Source of the DNA: Bacteroidales bacterium | Lineage (GTDB): Bacteria > Bacteroidota > Bacteroidia > Bacteroidales > UBA932 | Assembly: GCA_017465225.1 (NCBI GenBank) | Contig: JAFTWQ010000009.1 | Coordinates: 1 to 64,000 of the forward strand | DNA: 64,000 nucleotides | Reading direction: 5' to 3' | In this document: positions 5,379 to 31,691 of the stretch, piece after piece | Position numbering within the stretch: the first letter of the stretch is position 1 | Layout: each line of letters opens with the position of its first letter | The notes under the pieces: generated by a model | Database searches by the model: none | Told to the model about the DNA's origin: nothing | Seen by the model: the letters and a program-made list of their open reading frames with translations, nothing else | Position numbers and translations under genes: made by a program

Positions 5379-7481
5379 ATGCAGAAAATGTATGATGTCA
5401 TAGTTGTCGGAGGAGGACATGCCGGCTGTGAGGCTGCCATGGCTGCTTCACGCATGGGTTCGTCTGTGCTTCTCATATCAATGGATATGAACAAATTTGC
5501 TCAGATGTCATGTAATCCGGCAATAGGAGGAATAGCTAAAGGTCAGATAGTCAGAGAGATAGATGCTCTTGGAGGATATACGGGAATCATTACTGATGCA
5601 TCAACATTGCAGTTCAGGATGCTGAACAGGTCCAAGGGACCGGCCATGTGGAGTCCTAGAGCTCAGTGTGATAAAATCCAGTTTTCTCTGTACTGGCGAA
5701 AAATACTCGAAAGTGCCTGTATATTAGACCTTTACCAAGATTCTGTGGTCGGTTTTCTTTTCGATGGTTCAAAAATTTCGGGCGTACGTACGACTACCGG
5801 AGCAATTTTCAATTCTCAGACGGTTATTCTGACTGCCGGAACCTTCCTTGACGGAAGAATGTTCATAGGCAGGACTATGTTTGAAGGCGGACGAATAGGA
5901 GAGCTTCCTTCTCATGGATTGACTCAGCAGCTTGTCGACATGGGAGTGCAGACTGCAAGAATGAAGACAGGTACTCCTCCTCGAATCGATATTTCTTCCG
6001 TTGATACTTCAAAGCTCCTTCATCAGTATGGTGATGATGCTCCGGAAAAATTTTCATATCTTCCGTTCCTCTCGACTGCACAGAACGGAACACCGCAGAT
6101 GCCTTGCTTCGTGGTTCATACCAATCAGGAAGTTCATGACATATTGAGAAGCGGATTCGGTGACTCTCCTCTTTTCTCGGGTATGATCACTGGTATAGGT
6201 CCGCGTTACTGTCCGAGCATAGAAGACAAGCTTCGTACTTTTGCTGACAAGACAGAGCATCAGCTTTTCCTCGAACCGGAGGGTAGGGGAACGAATGAAT
6301 ATTATCTTCAGGGTTTCTCATCATCTCTTCCTCTGAATGTTCAGATGGAAGCTCTTCATCATATCAAGGGTCTTGAGGATGCCAAGATATTCCGTCCGGC
6401 ATATGCTGTCGAATATGACTATTTCGATCCTACCCAGCTCAAGCCAACTCTTGAATTGAAGAATATAGACAATCTGTATTTTGCCGGTCAGATCAATGGT
6501 ACCACGGGATATGAAGAAGCGGCTGCCCAGGGACTGATTGCCGGAATGAATGCCCATCTTAAAGTCCATGGAAAAGATCCGTTCATTCTTAAGAGAGACC
6601 AGGCATATATTGGCGTGCTTATAGATGATCTCATTACAAAGGGAGTTGATGAGCCGTATAGAATGTTTACGTCGAGAGCTGAATACAGAACTCTCTTGAG
6701 ACAGGATAATGCGGATTTCAGGCTTACTCCTGTTTCGTATGAAGCTGGTCTGGCAGATAGATTCAGGTATGATTATACAATGAGAAAGTATGATTCCATA
6801 TCTGATCTGGTAGAGTTTTTTGACAATACTTCGGTTAAACCTGATGTAGTAAATCAATATCTTGAATCTGTTTCTTCTGCTGTTGTAGACTGCAGAAAGC
6901 GCATTTCTGATCTTGTTTCGCGTCCTCAGGTCAAGTTGGATGATTTATTTGACTTAGTTCCACGTGGAACATTCGTCAAAGGAAATATAGATTTAAGCAA
7001 GACTTTTGAATCTCCTTTGAACGGACTTCTTGGAGAAGAAAAGCTATATTCAGATCTTCTGGAATATGGCGATCGCCAGTCTTTGAATTCAGATTTCGTC
7101 GAAGAATATGGCGATATTTCTTATAAGGATGCGGCCTATGTGCTTAAATTCAATACAGAATATCCGGTAAGCAGACTTGAAACATGCTCGCTTAATTCAA
7201 AGATTGATGGCAACTATAAGAAAGAAATATTGGATTCATGTGAGATTGCCATCAAATATAAAGGATATATACAGCGTGAGCAGCAGATGGCAGACAAGAT
7301 AATGCGTCTTGAAAACCTTCTGATTCCAGAGGATTTTGATTTTGATAGGGTAGAGAGTCTGTCAATAGAGTGTCGTCAGAAGCTTAAAAGATATGCCCCT
7401 CGTACTATTGCCCAGGCTTCCAGGATATCCGGAGTGTCTCCGGCTGACATCTCAGTCTTGCTGGTTTATTTCGGTAGATAA
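5379..7481 (+). CDS. mnmG: tRNA uridine-5-carboxymethylaminomethyl synthesis enzyme MnmG (GidA), enlarged
   Basis: FAD enzyme that with MnmE (GTPase) modifies U34 of tRNAs. The dinucleotide motif [15 protein letters not shown] lies at the N-terminus, with [11 protein letters not shown] and the C-terminal [21 protein letters not shown] chose ATG 5379 (700 aa) over an upstream TTG at 5370 inside ybeY; ATG 5388 is also possible. E. coli MnmG is 629 aa. The surplus of roughly 70 residues lies at about 529-620, between the RPQVKLDDL and YKGYI segments. That inserted stretch begins with VPRGT, encoded by a parS-like 16-mer (6956-6971). Confidence 0.95.
6956..6971. other. parS-like site 1 (inside mnmG)
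   Basis: Palindromic core GTTCCACGTGGAAC at 6957-6970. The 16-mer differs only in its first base from the perfect copy at 7491. The well-known bacterial parS consensus, bound by ParB, is TGTTTCACGTGAAACA; this family differs from it by one symmetric substitution in each half. Confidence 0.7.
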
Positions 7482-7485
7482 AATA

Positions 7486-7511
7486 AAAAGTGTTCCACGT
7501 GGAACACTTTT
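7486..7511. other. parS-like site 2 in a 26-bp perfect palindrome between mnmG and ruvA
   Basis: The 16-mer TGTTCCACGTGGAACA (7491-7506) is extended by AAAAG and CTTTT into a 26-bp perfect palindrome. It lies in the 28-bp gap between convergent mnmG and ruvA. It may act both as a ParB-binding centromere site and as a bidirectional terminator, because the arms could fold in RNA and are flanked by A and T runs. Confidence 0.75.
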
Positions 7512-8097
7512 ATAGTTTCTTTAGTGCCAGTTTAATGATTTCTTCCAGACTGGCATTTTGTTTTTCTTTAAGGACAGCGCTTACAGCTTTATTTACGTTT
7601 GCCTTTGTGAAGCCAAGCATTACAAGGGCTGTAGTAGCTTCGTCTGCTGCAGGGTTTGATGATGGAGCGAATATTGTCGGATTATCGCTGCCGCCGCCTT
7701 TGAATACTTTATCCTTGAGTTCAAGAATAAGTCTCTGTGCGCTCTTCATTCCGATTCCCTTTATGCTCTTGATCTTGTTGATGTCTTCAGCAAGAATTGC
7801 GTTTCTGATTTCTTCAGATGTAAGGGATGAAAGCATCATTCTGGCGGTAGATGCACCTATGCCGGAAACTCCTATGAGAAGTCTGAAAAGTTCCCTTTCG
7901 TCTTTCGTTGCGAATCCGTAATAGAGTTCTTCGTCTTCCCTGAGATAATGATGTATGAAGATCTTGGCTTCGGATTTTCCATTGAGCCCTTCGTAGGTCT
8001 GTAGGGATATGAGTATATTGTATCCTATTCCATAGCATTCCAATATAACCTCGGTTGGAGTTATTTCGGCTATGTTTCCTTTGATGTATTCGATCAT
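7510..8097 (-). CDS. ruvA: Holliday junction branch migration protein RuvA
   Basis: 195-aa DNA-binding subunit of RuvAB, which drives branch migration at Holliday junctions. The N-terminal OB domain is MIEYIKGNIAEITPTEVILE. Tandem helix-hairpin-helix motifs follow (LIGVSGIGASTARMML and IKSIKGIGMKSAQRLILEL). The C-terminal RuvB-interacting domain is ALVMLGF...EEIIKLALKKL. Length is normal. The 3' end abuts the parS-like palindrome shared with mnmG. ruvB is not adjacent. Confidence 0.96.
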   Translation of the reverse strand: MIEYIKGNIAEITPTEVILECYGIGYNILISLQTYEGLNGKSEAKIFIHHYLREDEELYYGFATKDERELFRLLIGVSGIGASTARMMLSSLTSEEIRNAILAEDINKIKSIKGIGMKSAQRLILELKDKVFKGGGSDNPTIFAPSSNPAADEATTALVMLGFTKANVNKAVSAVLKEKQNASLEEIIKLALKKL

Positions 8098-8122
8098 TTC
8101 GGTATGTTTTTTATCAGTCTTG

Positions 8123-8130
8123 CAAAATTA
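8123..8130 (-). promoter_or_regulatory. Bacteroidota -7 promoter element upstream of ruvA
   Basis: On the minus strand TAATTTTG matches TAnnTTTG, about 26 bp before the ruvA start. No clear -33 element. Confidence 0.4.
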
Positions 8131-8165
8131 TGATAATAATCTGTAAAAGAAAACATTGTTTTTGC

Positions 8166-8173
8166 TAAATTTG
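8166..8173 (+). promoter_or_regulatory. Bacteroidota -7 promoter element upstream of sufS
   Basis: TAAATTTG matches TAnnTTTG, 22 bp before the sufS ATG. No clear -33 element at 19-21 bp. Confidence 0.45.
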
Positions 8174-8195
8174 CAAGTTAAAAGTAATATTGGAT

Positions 8196-9422
8196 ATGGT
8201 CGTAAATGAAATAAGAAAACAGTTTCCTGCTCTTTCAAGAAAAGTGTATGGAAAGGATCTTGTGTATTTCGACAATGCTGCGACCAGCCATAGGACTCAA
8301 TCTGTGATTGACGAATGGAACAGGATAAGTGCTGAGTCAAATGCGAATATCCATAGAGCTGTCCATAGGCTTGCTGACGAGGCTACACAGGCATATGAGC
8401 AGGCGAGGGATGCTGTGCAGGCTTTCCTCAATGCTGAAAGCAGACAGGAGATAGTCTTTACCAGCGGAACTACTGCGGCTGTGAATCTGGTCGCTTTCTG
8501 CTTTGGTGAGGCGTATGTGAAAGAGGGAGATCAAGTGATCGTTACCGAGGCTGAACATCATTCCAACATTGTTCCATGGCAGATGATGTGCAATCGCAAA
8601 GGTGCGGTTCTGAAAGTTCTTCCAGTAGATGATACTGGTCATCTCATGGTAGAGAACCTCGAAGAAATCCTCTCTGACAGGACAAGAATAATGGCAGTGA
8701 CACATATCTCAAATGTGCTCGGACTTATAAATCCTGTTGAAGATATTATAAGGAAATGCCATGAAAGGGGAGTTCCAGTCCTTGTGGATGGAGCCCAGGG
8801 GGCTGTGCATTGCAAGGTGGATGTGCAGAAGATGGATTGCGATTTCTATGTCTTTTCAGGCCATAAGCTTTATGCCGCTACCGGTACCGGAGTACTTTAT
8901 GGCAAGAGAAAATGGCTTGAATCCATGCCTCCGTACATGGGTGGTGGAGAGATGGTAGGAACTGTTACATTCGCTGAAACCACATATGCTCCTCTGCCGA
9001 TGAAGTATGAGGCAGGTACTCAGAATTTTGCTTCAGCGGCTACTTTGAAACCAGCTTTAGAATTTATTAATTCATTGAATGATAATGAGTTAATAAATTA
9101 TATGGATAAAATCAGAGACTATCTGCTTGATGTCTTTATGAATGATGAAAGAATTGATCTTTATGGTGTTCCTCGTGGAACAAATAAAGAAAAAATCCCG
9201 CTTTTTTCGTTTACCGTGAAAGGGGTTCATCATGAGGATCTGGCTTTGATCCTGGATAAGATGGGCATTGCAGTAAGGTCTGGGCAGATGTGTGCGGAGC
9301 CTGTGATGGACAGGTTCGGGGTGACGGGAATGCTCAGGGTTTCGCTTGCTCCTTACAATACCATGGAAGAGGCTGAATATTTTGTGAAATGCTTGAATAA
9401 AGCAATTGATATGTTGATATAA
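8196..9422 (+). CDS. sufS: Cysteine desulfurase SufS (class V aminotransferase)
   Basis: PLP enzyme that takes sulfur from cysteine for Fe-S cluster assembly. The chosen ATG 8196 gives 408 aa; an upstream TTG at 8190 is less likely. Visible are the PLP-phosphate segment TSGTTAAVNL, the EAEHHSNIVPW loop, VDGAQGAVH, the PLP lysine in FSGHKLYAATGTG, and the catalytic Cys in RSGQMCAEP. This is the group II (SufS/CsdA) form, working with SufE encoded just downstream. A parS-like 16-mer with one mismatch (9167-9182) lies inside the gene. A palindromic repeat starts within the stop codon. Confidence 0.94.
   Translation: MVVNEIRKQFPALSRKVYGKDLVYFDNAATSHRTQSVIDEWNRISAESNANIHRAVHRLADEATQAYEQARDAVQAFLNAESRQEIVFTSGTTAAVNLVAFCFGEAYVKEGDQVIVTEAEHHSNIVPWQMMCNRKGAVLKVLPVDDTGHLMVENLEEILSDRTRIMAVTHISNVLGLINPVEDIIRKCHERGVPVLVDGAQGAVHCKVDVQKMDCDFYVFSGHKLYAATGTGVLYGKRKWLESMPPYMGGGEMVGTVTFAETTYAPLPMKYEAGTQNFASAATLKPALEFINSLNDNELINYMDKIRDYLLDVFMNDERIDLYGVPRGTNKEKIPLFSFTVKGVHHEDLALILDKMGIAVRSGQMCAEPVMDRFGVTGMLRVSLAPYNTMEEAEYFVKCLNKAIDMLI
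9167..9182. other. parS-like site 3 (inside sufS), one mismatch
   Basis: TGTTCCTCGTGGAACA differs from the palindromic copy at 7491 only at one central base. It is read as V-P-R-G-T, in the same phase as the copy inside mnmG. Confidence 0.5.
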
Positions 9423-29335: not shown

Positions 29336-31219
29336 ATGCAGAGGGTAAAATATACCTTTTATATAATAATGGCCGTCCTTTTCCTTTCGTCCGGAAAACT
29401 TTCGGCACAGAACCGTCAGGTGGACAGTCTCGTCCGTCTTGGCGACTCTCTGCGTATGGAATACCGTTTCGAGGAGGCATGCCGGGCATATGAAAAGGCA
29501 GTCGATATCCTCGAATATGACTTTGCTGACTCGCTCATGATCGAAGCTGTCTCGGGAAAGATCCTTCTTGCTGAAAACGGACTGAACATGACCGGATTCG
29601 CCTATACTCCCAAAGTCGTGGACAGAAGGAAATTCCCGCTTGAAGACTTCTTTCTTTATTTTCCTCTGGAAGACAGGTCGTGGCGTCTGGCTCCCAATCA
29701 GCTTGACAGCACCTCGAATGTGCTTTCAAAGGCCTTGTATGCCCCATCGGATGCCGGCAGGATATATTTTTCAGCTGAAGATCAGGAGGGGTTCCGCAAT
29801 ATCTTCATGACGGAACTGCAGGATACCGTATGGACATATCCGGTGACCCAGAACGAGTCTGTCACAATGCTCTCCAACGAGATCTATCCGATGATTTCCG
29901 CTGACGGAAGGTCCCTCTATTTCTCATCAGACGGCCTTTATGGCGTTGGCGGTTATGACCTTTATGTCTCAAGATGGGATGACGATCTACAGGGATGGTC
30001 CGAGCCGGTGAACATGGGATTCCCGTATTCTTCCCCATATGATGATTTCCTTTATGTGTCCGACGAGTCCGAAGGACATGTCTTCTTCGCTTCCAACAGG
30101 GAATGCTCATCTGACAGTGTCTGGGTGTATGTCCTTGAATATGACAGCATGCCCGTGAGACATTCTGTCGAAGATCCGGATGAACTGCTGAAGCTTTCGC
30201 GTCTTTCTGTACAGGAGGAGACTTCTGTGCCGGAGAAGAGTGACGATGCCATGCCGGAAAGCGCAGCGAAGGACAGGTATATGGACAAGATGGCCCAGGT
30301 GCGTGCGTTGAGGGATTCGGTGTCATATTATTCATCTCTTCTTGATGAGGAAAGAAGCCGTTTTGCCCTCAGCAATGATGATGCTGAACGAATGAGACTT
30401 GCAGAGGTCATACGTGAAAGGGAAGCGAAAGTTCCTGTGCTTCAGGAGGATCTGAACAGGACCATTTCCGAGCTTCACGAAATTGAGATGGAGTTTCTTT
30501 TCAGCGGAGTCGCCGTGGATCCGGACAAGATAATGGCTGCCGCTACGGAAGAGGCAGAGGCTCCGGAAGGATATGAATTCATCAGAAGAAGCCTTGGAGG
30601 TCCTCTGTGTCTTGATATCATGCGTCCTGAAAATGAGTTTGACTATACATTCATGATCTTGAAGGAGGGCCGTTTCGCGGAGGATAACACCATTCCGGAC
30701 GGAATAGTCTATCAGATCCAGATATTCAGCGCTGGCGGAAAGGCCGATGTGGCTAGCCTCAGGGGCTTGAGTCCGGTGTTCGAGATCCGAAGCGACAGCG
30801 GAAGATATACATATCGCGTAGGTCTGTTCAATACATTCGATGATGTGCAGTCGAAGCTTGATGCTGTCAGGAGCCGTGGCTTCAGAAGCGCATTCATAGT
30901 GGCGTATGTGGATGGTGAGGAGACATCGGTAGCTACTGCAAGGAGTCTGGAGTCAGGAGGTGCCGCGGAGGAAGCCATGTATGAGGTAAGGATCGTTCCT
31001 TCGGAAGGCGTTCTCGATGAAGCGGTGACAGCCGGAATCCGTCAGCATGCAGCAGGAAAGGATATTGCCCGTACAGAGGCCGAGGACGGAACCATCACGT
31101 TTGTTGTAGGACCGTTTGATGTCAAGGCTGATGCCGATGCTCTGGCAGAATTCATAAATGCTTCCGGTTCGTCTGAAGTTTCGGCCGAGGTTGTTGCAAT
31201 TGATGCTGTAAATCAGTAA
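29336..31219 (+). CDS. Secreted TPR-PD40-SPOR protein
   Basis: 627 aa with signal peptide (ending LSAQ near residue 24). A TPR-like pair follows (VDSLVRLGDSLRMEYRFEEACRAYEKAV). Next come WD40-like PD40 propeller repeats at about residues 130-270 (RIYFSAEDQEGFRNIF, YPMISADGRSLYFSSDGL, GHVFFASNR). A coiled coil lies at about 315-385. Two SPOR-like peptidoglycan-binding modules close the protein, one from VYQIQIFSAGG to FIVAYVDG and one from YEVRIVPSEG to the end. The arrangement suggests a periplasmic or outer-membrane protein that touches denuded peptidoglycan, perhaps at the division site. It is followed by nfeD after 10 bp. Confidence 0.82.
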   Translation: MQRVKYTFYIIMAVLFLSSGKLSAQNRQVDSLVRLGDSLRMEYRFEEACRAYEKAVDILEYDFADSLMIEAVSGKILLAENGLNMTGFAYTPKVVDRRKFPLEDFFLYFPLEDRSWRLAPNQLDSTSNVLSKALYAPSDAGRIYFSAEDQEGFRNIFMTELQDTVWTYPVTQNESVTMLSNEIYPMISADGRSLYFSSDGLYGVGGYDLYVSRWDDDLQGWSEPVNMGFPYSSPYDDFLYVSDESEGHVFFASNRECSSDSVWVYVLEYDSMPVRHSVEDPDELLKLSRLSVQEETSVPEKSDDAMPESAAKDRYMDKMAQVRALRDSVSYYSSLLDEERSRFALSNDDAERMRLAEVIREREAKVPVLQEDLNRTISELHEIEMEFLFSGVAVDPDKIMAAATEEAEAPEGYEFIRRSLGGPLCLDIMRPENEFDYTFMILKEGRFAEDNTIPDGIVYQIQIFSAGGKADVASLRGLSPVFEIRSDSGRYTYRVGLFNTFDDVQSKLDAVRSRGFRSAFIVAYVDGEETSVATARSLESGGAAEEAMYEVRIVPSEGVLDEAVTAGIRQHAAGKDIARTEAEDGTITFVVGPFDVKADADALAEFINASGSSEVSAEVVAIDAVNQ

Positions 31220-31229
31220 ATTTGCCCTC

Positions 31230-31691
31230 ATGGGATTTATCATTACATTAATATTGGTCGGCCTCGTGCTGATCTTCGCTGAAATCCTGCTGATTCCGGG
31301 AGTCGGAGTTGCAGGTGTCCTCGGACTTCTGTCCATGGGAGGATCATGTTTCTATGCATTCTATGAATTCGGCAACACTGTCGGAGCCATAGTTACAGCC
31401 ATTGTGGCTGTGCTGATAGTCGCTCTTACCGTATGGGTGCTCAGGGCAAAGACCTGGAAGAGAATGTCTCTTGAAACCAATATCGACTCCAAGGCAGTAC
31501 CTTCGGAATCTTCGACCATCGCTGTCGGTGACCGTGGTAAGACCCTGACAAGGCTTGCTCCTATGGGTTCAGCGCGTTTCGGAGACTATGTGATCGAGGT
31601 TAAGTCTCTCGAGGGAATGCTTGATCCGGGAATCGATGTCGAGGTGGTGCTCATCGAGGACAACAGGATCACCGTCAAGCCTTTGATTTAG
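31230..31691 (+). CDS. NfeD-family membrane protein (short form)
   Basis: 153 aa with three or so membrane segments in the first 75 residues (FIITLILVGLVLIFAEILLIPGVGVAG, then LGLLSMGG and VGAIVTAIVAVLIVALTVWVL). A C-terminal OB-like NfeD domain follows (GDRGKTLTRLAPMGSARFGDYVIEV). The ClpP-like protease domain of long NfeDs is absent. Short NfeD proteins are typically encoded directly before flotillins and work with them in membrane microdomains, as seen here (24 bp to floA). Confidence 0.9.
   Translation: MGFIITLILVGLVLIFAEILLIPGVGVAGVLGLLSMGGSCFYAFYEFGNTVGAIVTAIVAVLIVALTVWVLRAKTWKRMSLETNIDSKAVPSESSTIAVGDRGKTLTRLAPMGSARFGDYVIEVKSLEGMLDPGIDVEVVLIEDNRITVKPLI

Follow-up and report, generated by a model that had tools for sequence, protein, structure and literature searches.

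A probable chromosomal centromere of the parS type at mnmG, ruvA and sufS of a Bacteroidales bacterium

The window analysed here is a stretch of 64,000 nucleotides from the assembly GCA_017465225.1 of a Bacteroidales bacterium (contig JAFTWQ010000009.1, positions 1 to 64,000 of the forward strand). It contains three parS-like palindromes in and around the genes mnmG, ruvA and sufS, and with a probability of about 95% this cluster is the chromosomal centromere of the organism. The assignment draws on results computed here, namely the sites themselves, their exclusivity in the genome, their conservation at mnmG, the selection acting on the DNA of the coding sites, a parS-type ParB protein and a skew switch at parS in some relatives. 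A parS cluster is as such a known kind of element; the anchoring to mnmG, the writing into codons, the fusion to a terminator and a covariation of ParB and palindrome in one relative (G025) go beyond the ordinary, the last two as leads. The elements of the cluster are as follows.

6956..6971, no strand: parS-like site 1, AGTTCCACGTGGAACA, in the codons (L)VPRGT of mnmG ahead of the C-terminal helical bundle, with frozen third bases.
7491..7506, no strand: parS-like site 2, the perfect 16-bp palindrome TGTTCCACGTGGAACA, equal to parS2/parS3 of Pseudomonas aeruginosa.
7486..7511, both strands: a 26-bp perfect palindrome enclosing site 2, a predicted intrinsic terminator for the convergent mnmG and ruvA with covarying flanks.
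9167..9182, no strand: parS-like site 3, TGTTCCTCGTGGAACA, in the codons VPRGT of sufS, with conserved arms and a loose centre.

A scan of the window for TGTTCCACGTGGAACA recovers site 2 as a perfect match and sites 1 and 3 with one mismatch each, exactly where the first-pass annotation had placed them, and finds no fourth match at up to three mismatches within the 64 kb. The annotation had also put the random expectation far below 0.01, and this holds: uniform arithmetic gives 0.0007 matches with at most one mismatch in 64 kb, and none of 100 dinucleotide shuffles of the window yields three sites. Across the whole assembly (2,347,522 bases in 90 contigs, 78% complete) a search at up to two mismatches returns the three sites of the window only, all within 2.2 kb, with no spread over the genome. 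At three mismatches six extra matches appear, dispersed over other contigs and at chance level, the reversed pattern having 16 matches at up to three. Because TGTTCCACGTGGAACA is palindromic, every site is counted on both strands in the match lists.

The 16-mer had been described as differing from the known parS consensus by one change in each half. This is correct for the classic form TGTTTCACGTGAAACA of Bacillus subtilis and Caulobacter, from which it departs by T for C at the fourth base of the 14-bp core, but the sequence is not merely near to a parS, as TGTTCCACGTGGAACA is identical to parS2/parS3 of P. aeruginosa (PMC4368675 Table 1; PMC5098823). In that species ParB binds it in vivo, as judged by chromatin immunoprecipitation sequencing (PMC5098823), and the table of a review lists TGTTCCACGTGGAACA for P. 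putida and TGTTCCACGTGGAACG for Myxococcus xanthus (PMC7022226). A parB gene, on whose presence the earlier proposal depended, is found in the genome as a single TIGR00180 match above the cut-off (E 2e-54) with ParB_N and HTH_ParB domains, and a ParA-type ATPase adjoins it on a contig other than that of the window. At the four positions that determine specificity in Caulobacter ParB, the protein has R173, F179, K184 and G201. Noc proteins have Q173/R201, and the bases favoured in their sites are A1 and C6 (PMC7383237). R173/G201 is the parS type and does not match the Noc type, and base 1 of the window sites is G and base 6 of sites 1 and 2 is A, unlike in Noc sites. The cluster unites several features expected of a ParABS centromere: a match to a proven parS, few and clustered sites, a cognate ParB with ParA, and DNA conserved beyond the needs of the protein.

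The mechanism of ParABS segregation is established. Applied to the window, ParB would bind sites 1 and 2 (6956, 7491) and, less strongly, site 3 (9167), load there and spread along the flanking DNA, and ParA would then move the ParB-parS complex so that newly copied origin regions separate. Binding, spreading and segregation at these particular sites are thus proposed from sequence comparison.

Conservation of the cluster was followed in the own genome and 40 relatives. A site with at most one mismatch is present in 22 of the 41 genomes, against 0/41 for the reversed-pattern control. MnmG matches were obtained in 35/41; the match in G012 is only weak, leaving 34, and in G002 and G040 a contig end cuts the gene, leaving 32 assessable genomes. 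All but one of these (31/32, the exception being G025) have a parS-like site in or beside mnmG, counted as at most two mismatches from the Bacteroidales form or at most one from the classic or mixed forms. The 31 comprise the own genome, 21 others and nine more, of which four have the exact classic form and five only two-mismatch sites. The nearest named relatives are metagenome-assembled genomes of Bacteroidales, including Candidatus Cryptobacteroides. Named mnmG loci, 64 in all (1.10 Mb), contain 108 matches at up to one mismatch and 0 for each of 60 scrambled palindromes. Adding the window, 63 of 65 loci have a site with at most two mismatches within 1.5 kb of mnmG, and one of the two without it (L117) ends inside the gene. 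These named loci and the unnamed set are not independent, since they share members (L036 and L057 appear to be one contig).

The linkage extends to the phylum, for which 30 genomes were drawn in addition to the own and 29 non-own mnmG loci with flanks were examined (G066 is not among them). In 26/29 the 1.5 kb on either side of mnmG contain a 16-mer that departs by at most one base from the classic, Bacteroidales or mixed form, whereas 200 scrambled patterns average 0.005/29 on the same loci. Two of the loci missed by the 16-mer, those of G041 and G042, carry the exact 14-bp core, which raises the count to 28/29. Classic TGTTTCACGTGAAACA is the form found at mnmG in most of these loci. Among complete or almost complete genomes, G043, G045, G047, G068 and G069 have their sites at up to one mismatch from TGTTYCACGTGRAACA no more than about 13 kb from mnmG, apart from one weak G045 site about 150 kb away; by 16-mer, G042 has two weak sites only, elsewhere than at mnmG. 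The reversed control for the TGTTYCACGTGRAACA search gives a single match, in G045, over the nine genomes searched. The mnmG positions of the same-genus genomes G013, G016 and G003 (L040, L042, L043) carry TGTTCCACATGGAACA, which has a non-palindromic centre. Titles and the opening lines of abstracts yielded no literature on a linkage of mnmG and parS in Bacteroidota or on parS inside a terminator, which is a weak negative. Livny et al. in 2007 reportedly surveyed parS in bacteria, and that survey may cover part of the linkage.

The earlier proposal would have been refuted by a loss of the sites where codons can change freely, and the opposite is observed. Third bases were counted in 61 mnmG and 49 sufS genes including those of the window, drawn from 65 loci after truncated and more than 98% identical genes had been dropped, and always among rows with the same first two codon bases. 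Over site 1 of mnmG the third bases are frozen (GTT 54/54, CCA 53/55, CGT 51/51, GGA 54/54), and only the ACN codon, which holds the loose outer base of the 16-mer, varies (A29 T23 C1 G1). In 163 other conserved fourfold columns of mnmG the commonest base averages 0.51 and none reaches 0.95; the R column of the site narrowly fails the amino-acid filter applied to these comparison columns. Site 3 in sufS gives GTT 36/38, CGT 25/32, GGA 34/34 and ACA 32/35 with a free CCN codon (T25 A9 G8 C4), against an average of 0.49 in 116 other sufS columns, none of which reaches 0.95; the V, R, G and T columns fail the amino-acid filter here because RGT is missing in relatives outside the nearer clade. The sufS counts show that the site, where present, keeps its arms and leaves its centre free. 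DNA is conserved beyond the need of the protein strongly in mnmG and partially in sufS. In L085 (13402), L093 (8045) and L084 (15609) the sufS site is absent and a further TGTTCCACGGGGAACA-type site, perhaps a replacement third site, is located between sufS and the glycyl-tRNA synthetase gene.

Site 2 takes up the 28 bp that separate the convergent genes mnmG and ruvA and is probably also the core of a bidirectional transcription terminator for both genes, as judged from prediction and covariation. A scan for intrinsic terminators makes a prediction on each strand whose limits are precisely 7486-7511, and the two hairpins have energies of -14.3 and -13.8 kcal/mol; the same scanned stretch has four more predictions, which lie inside genes, and shuffles average 2.0. 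The sequence has the features of an intrinsic terminator, with a hairpin and T-rich tract on both strands, convergent genes and pairing kept by covariation. The palindrome is extended by at least 4 bp per side in 32/45 intergenic sites, 3/56 mnmG sites, 0/34 sufS sites and 2/21 other sites, and with 10/45 intergenic sites unextended the terminator part is not shared by all. A manual count finds such an extension in 4/84 mnmG-side sites outside the genus (L116 with 13 bp, L223 with 6, L050 and L053 with 4). The flanks of the intergenic site vary between species yet stay complementary: with 40 distinct rows, none of 2000 pairing shuffles reaches the observed value at offsets 1-4, 6 and 11, 1 to 6 of 2000 do at 5, 7 and 8, and 37, 157 and 672 do at the weaker offsets 10, 9 and 12, fractions that are not true probabilities because the rows are related. 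The core is nearly invariant among relatives, the sites having been chosen by core match. The simplest reading is that one palindrome would serve two uses, a fixed core for ParB and covarying flanks for an RNA hairpin.

Such a terminator might be all there is, the palindromes acting at the RNA level only, with the intergenic one a bidirectional intrinsic terminator and the coding ones due to chance or to the protein. The prediction on both strands and the covarying extension of most intergenic sites speak for it, but a terminator stem needs pairing and not a fixed sequence, and here the core stays near-invariant while the flanks covary. The mnmG and sufS sites are moreover mostly unextended and still keep the core at synonymous positions, and outside the genus extension is confined to the four mnmG-side sites above, so that an RNA-only role is highly improbable. 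It is barely credible that the coding sites are conserved because the VPRGT peptide matters. This peptide is frequent at both places; the fourfold third bases over the mnmG site are nevertheless frozen, unlike the 163 other columns, and seven MnmGs outside the lineage (611-620 aa) are without VPRGT while six of their seven loci carry the site outside the gene.

The sites could also belong to another protein that reads palindromes, such as a Noc-like occlusion factor, a CACGTG-reading regulator or a methylase, and many proteins indeed read CACGTG centres. For a Noc-like factor the sole TIGR00180 match is of the wrong type, with R173/G201, and of the bases that its sites prefer (PMC7383237), A1 is absent from the window sites and C6 from sites 1 and 2; for a methylase or regulon, exclusive clustering at mnmG and a skew switch in relatives would be unexpected. 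Very little weight is given to this possibility, and a centromere read by ParB is preferred to all three.

If the cluster is a centromere it should lie near the replication origin, as the first-pass annotation had suggested; the case for this comes from relatives, which give mixed results. In a study of 12 gut bacteria, including two Bacteroidetes, parS clusters were found at the origin; the origin did not systematically coincide with dnaA, and parS itself was part of the origin placement (PMC10197239). Guanine-cytosine (GC) skew was measured here in sampled 20-kb pieces of five relatives, and G013 and G068 show a clear skew switch at parS, G038 one nearby, G069 a loosely placed one and G016 an ambiguous picture. 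In G013, 13 of 14 pieces left of 417.5 kb are negative and 7/7 onward are positive, with parS at 427 kb. In G068, a single contig of 2.59 Mb, 6/9 pieces up to 865 kb are negative, the next 9/9 (880 kb to 2.12 Mb) positive and the last two negative; parS lies at 876 kb, whereas dnaA opens the record and falls in the mostly negative arm. In G069 the 12 pieces up to 2.33 Mb are all negative, those up to 2.8 Mb mixed and the five from 3.1 Mb all positive, with parS at 2.28-2.30 Mb. On the own contig only the right-hand side is visible, where ten of ten 8-kb pieces over the first 80 kb are positive; this is compatible with an origin at or left of the cluster without showing it.

The annotation had further called mnmG a classic neighbour of parAB, which does not apply here. 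parB is on a different contig from mnmG in 19/19 Bacteroidales genomes in which both were found, and in 6/6 complete or nearly complete genomes of the phylum, taken as circular, it lies roughly 0.3-1.1 Mb away, while parS stays with mnmG. Nor is dnaA a reliable marker. Its distance from parS is 876 kb in G068, 1.03 Mb in G045, about 427 kb in G047 and 27 kb in G069; it lies 16 kb from mnmG in G042 and probably not far from the sites in G043, whose record opens with dnaA and has the sites towards its end. In 3/6 complete genomes dnaA is thus far away. As an origin locator dnaA was set aside: it is on another contig than mnmG in 17/17 Bacteroidales genomes with dnaA found, a count of little weight on short contigs. 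The own 78% complete assembly has no DnaA over the cut-off. Two equal matches to the DnaA model (27 bits, below the cut-off) lie 45 kb apart on the own contig C20, at 30974-31462 and 76034-76522 (L032, L033), and are possibly transposon ATPases.

Several observations weigh against the centromere assignment or narrow it. In P. aeruginosa, sites with two mismatches are not bound in vivo, and one such unbound site combines the CCTCG centre of the sufS site with one more mismatch (PMC5098823); for this reason site 3 is the least certain of the three. Five relatives have two-mismatch sites only, L114 has no site within two mismatches near mnmG, and G053 has no recognisable site there by 16-mer or 14-bp core. 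The skew is similarly uneven. The switch of G038 (6/7 pieces up to 350 kb negative, 12/14 from 370 kb positive) is about 60 kb from its parS at 423 kb, that of G069 can be placed only between 2.4 and 3.1 Mb, and G016, the best-assembled relative of the same genus, has no clear switch, its skew being too weak to call. Within the window itself 2 of 16 4-kb pieces have negative skew. Lastly, as the assembly is 78% complete, further sites could be missing from it.

G025 is the sole assessable relative with mnmG and without a standard parS beside it. Its ParB, read in frame, has N173 where the own protein and 44 other relatives compared have R, and two TTTTCACGTGAAAA palindromes 600 bp apart lie next to its mnmG (L235, 2163 and 2763; the ParB locus reference is L199, ~1880). 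TTTTCACGTGAAAA differs from the classic parS in that T replaces the outer G of either half, and position 173 reads base 1, a guanine in parS, in Caulobacter (PMC7383237). Within the 18.5 kb of this one genome that were examined, it is the only single symmetric variant of the 14-bp classic core, and both of its matches are beside mnmG; 3.99 Mb of other loci have 0 matches, and 8e-5 are expected per 6 kb at this base composition. The pair is a strong lead, not proof, for a natural change of parS specificity, and if the pairing is right it supports the view that ParB reads the mnmG-side palindromes. An N173-type ParB would then prefer TTTTCACGTGAAAA over GTTTCACGTGAAAC, and parS specificity would have switched naturally at a residue that is said to be absolutely conserved among extant ParB orthologs (PMC7383237).

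Residue K172 of ParB was considered as the cause of the TTCC form of parS and rejected as a general rule. It occurs in 11/13 proteins of TTCC-labelled genomes vs 1/20 of TTTC-labelled ones (Fisher p 4e-6, with non-independent relatives), the labels having been set by eye from mnmG-near sites and seven mixed and six site-less or undetermined genomes omitted. The rule is broken by G027 and G039, which are TTCC without K172, and by G068, which is TTTC with K172. It is also contradicted by the protein of PDB 7bnk, presumably the M. xanthus ParB (M. xanthus consensus TGTTCCACGTGGAACG), which has E at position 172.

The genes that carry and flank the sites are the following.

5382..7481, + strand: mnmG/gidA, 699 aa, with a lineage-specific insert of about 80 aa that starts just past site 1 (Pfam, alignment).
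7510..8097, - strand: ruvA, convergent to mnmG (Pfam).
8193..9422, + strand: sufS-type gene (Pfam aminotransferase class V; the name SufS is a reading of the translation).

The gene order is ybeY, mnmG (+), ruvA (-), sufS (+), SufE-like, DUF59-like, folK and a glycyl-tRNA synthetase gene; MnmG, RuvA and the class V aminotransferase were checked with Pfam and the remaining names read from translations. Site 1 encodes LVPRGT at the end of Pfam GIDA_C_1st, before the C-terminal helical bundle of MnmG, and site 3 encodes GVPRGT in sufS. The MnmG insert (window 6970-7210) follows directly on the VPRGT of site 1. It is absent from the seven MnmGs outside the lineage and also from several genomes of the same genus, in which parS is found at the insert point (e.g. 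G017).

Among known systems the cluster closely resembles those of P. aeruginosa (parS1-4) and P. putida, with which it shares the identical 16-mer, a small cluster and a ParA/ParB pair in the genome (PMC4368675, PMC7022226). Unlike Pseudomonas parS, it lies at mnmG-ruvA-sufS apart from parAB, two of its sites are coding and under codon-level selection, one is fused to a predicted terminator, and no canonical structural maintenance of chromosomes (SMC) protein passes the cut-off in 20 genomes. For the latter TIGR02168, the model of canonical SMC, was used: 0/20 Bacteroidales genomes exceed its cut-off of 567 (best 36.7 bits, E 7e-10) against 10/14 control genomes, other SMC-like complexes being outside the search. 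This agrees with PMC10197239, in which no known condensin turned up in Bacteroides caecimuris or Muribaculum intestinale, members of the same phylum that likewise have a parS cluster, used together with GC skew to place the origin. That study searched for TGTTTCACGTGAAACA with two mismatches; its main text is without mnmG or gidA, and nothing was seen there of a coding parS or a terminator. In the B. subtilis/Caulobacter type, loading of SMC-ScpAB at parS is a main role (PMC7022226), and with no canonical SMC over the cut-off this role is probably not applicable here.

A broader combined reading seems slightly better than an even bet. It holds that parS is anchored to mnmG and not to parAB or dnaA in nearly all of the phylum sample, that it has merged with gene anatomy in this lineage, that ParB and its sites have co-evolved, and that all of this takes place without canonical SMC. 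Within it, and with the same narrow lean in favour, the merger would consist of one parS written in synonymous codons at the hinge of MnmG and another forming the near-invariant core of a covarying terminator. If the double use of the middle palindrome is true, ParB occupancy and transcription termination could interfere or cooperate. The cluster also offers a setting in which to ask about the role of ParB-parS without canonical SMC, and in Bacteroidota, where dnaA is not always at the origin, parS beside mnmG provides a sequence marker of the centromere and probably of the origin region.

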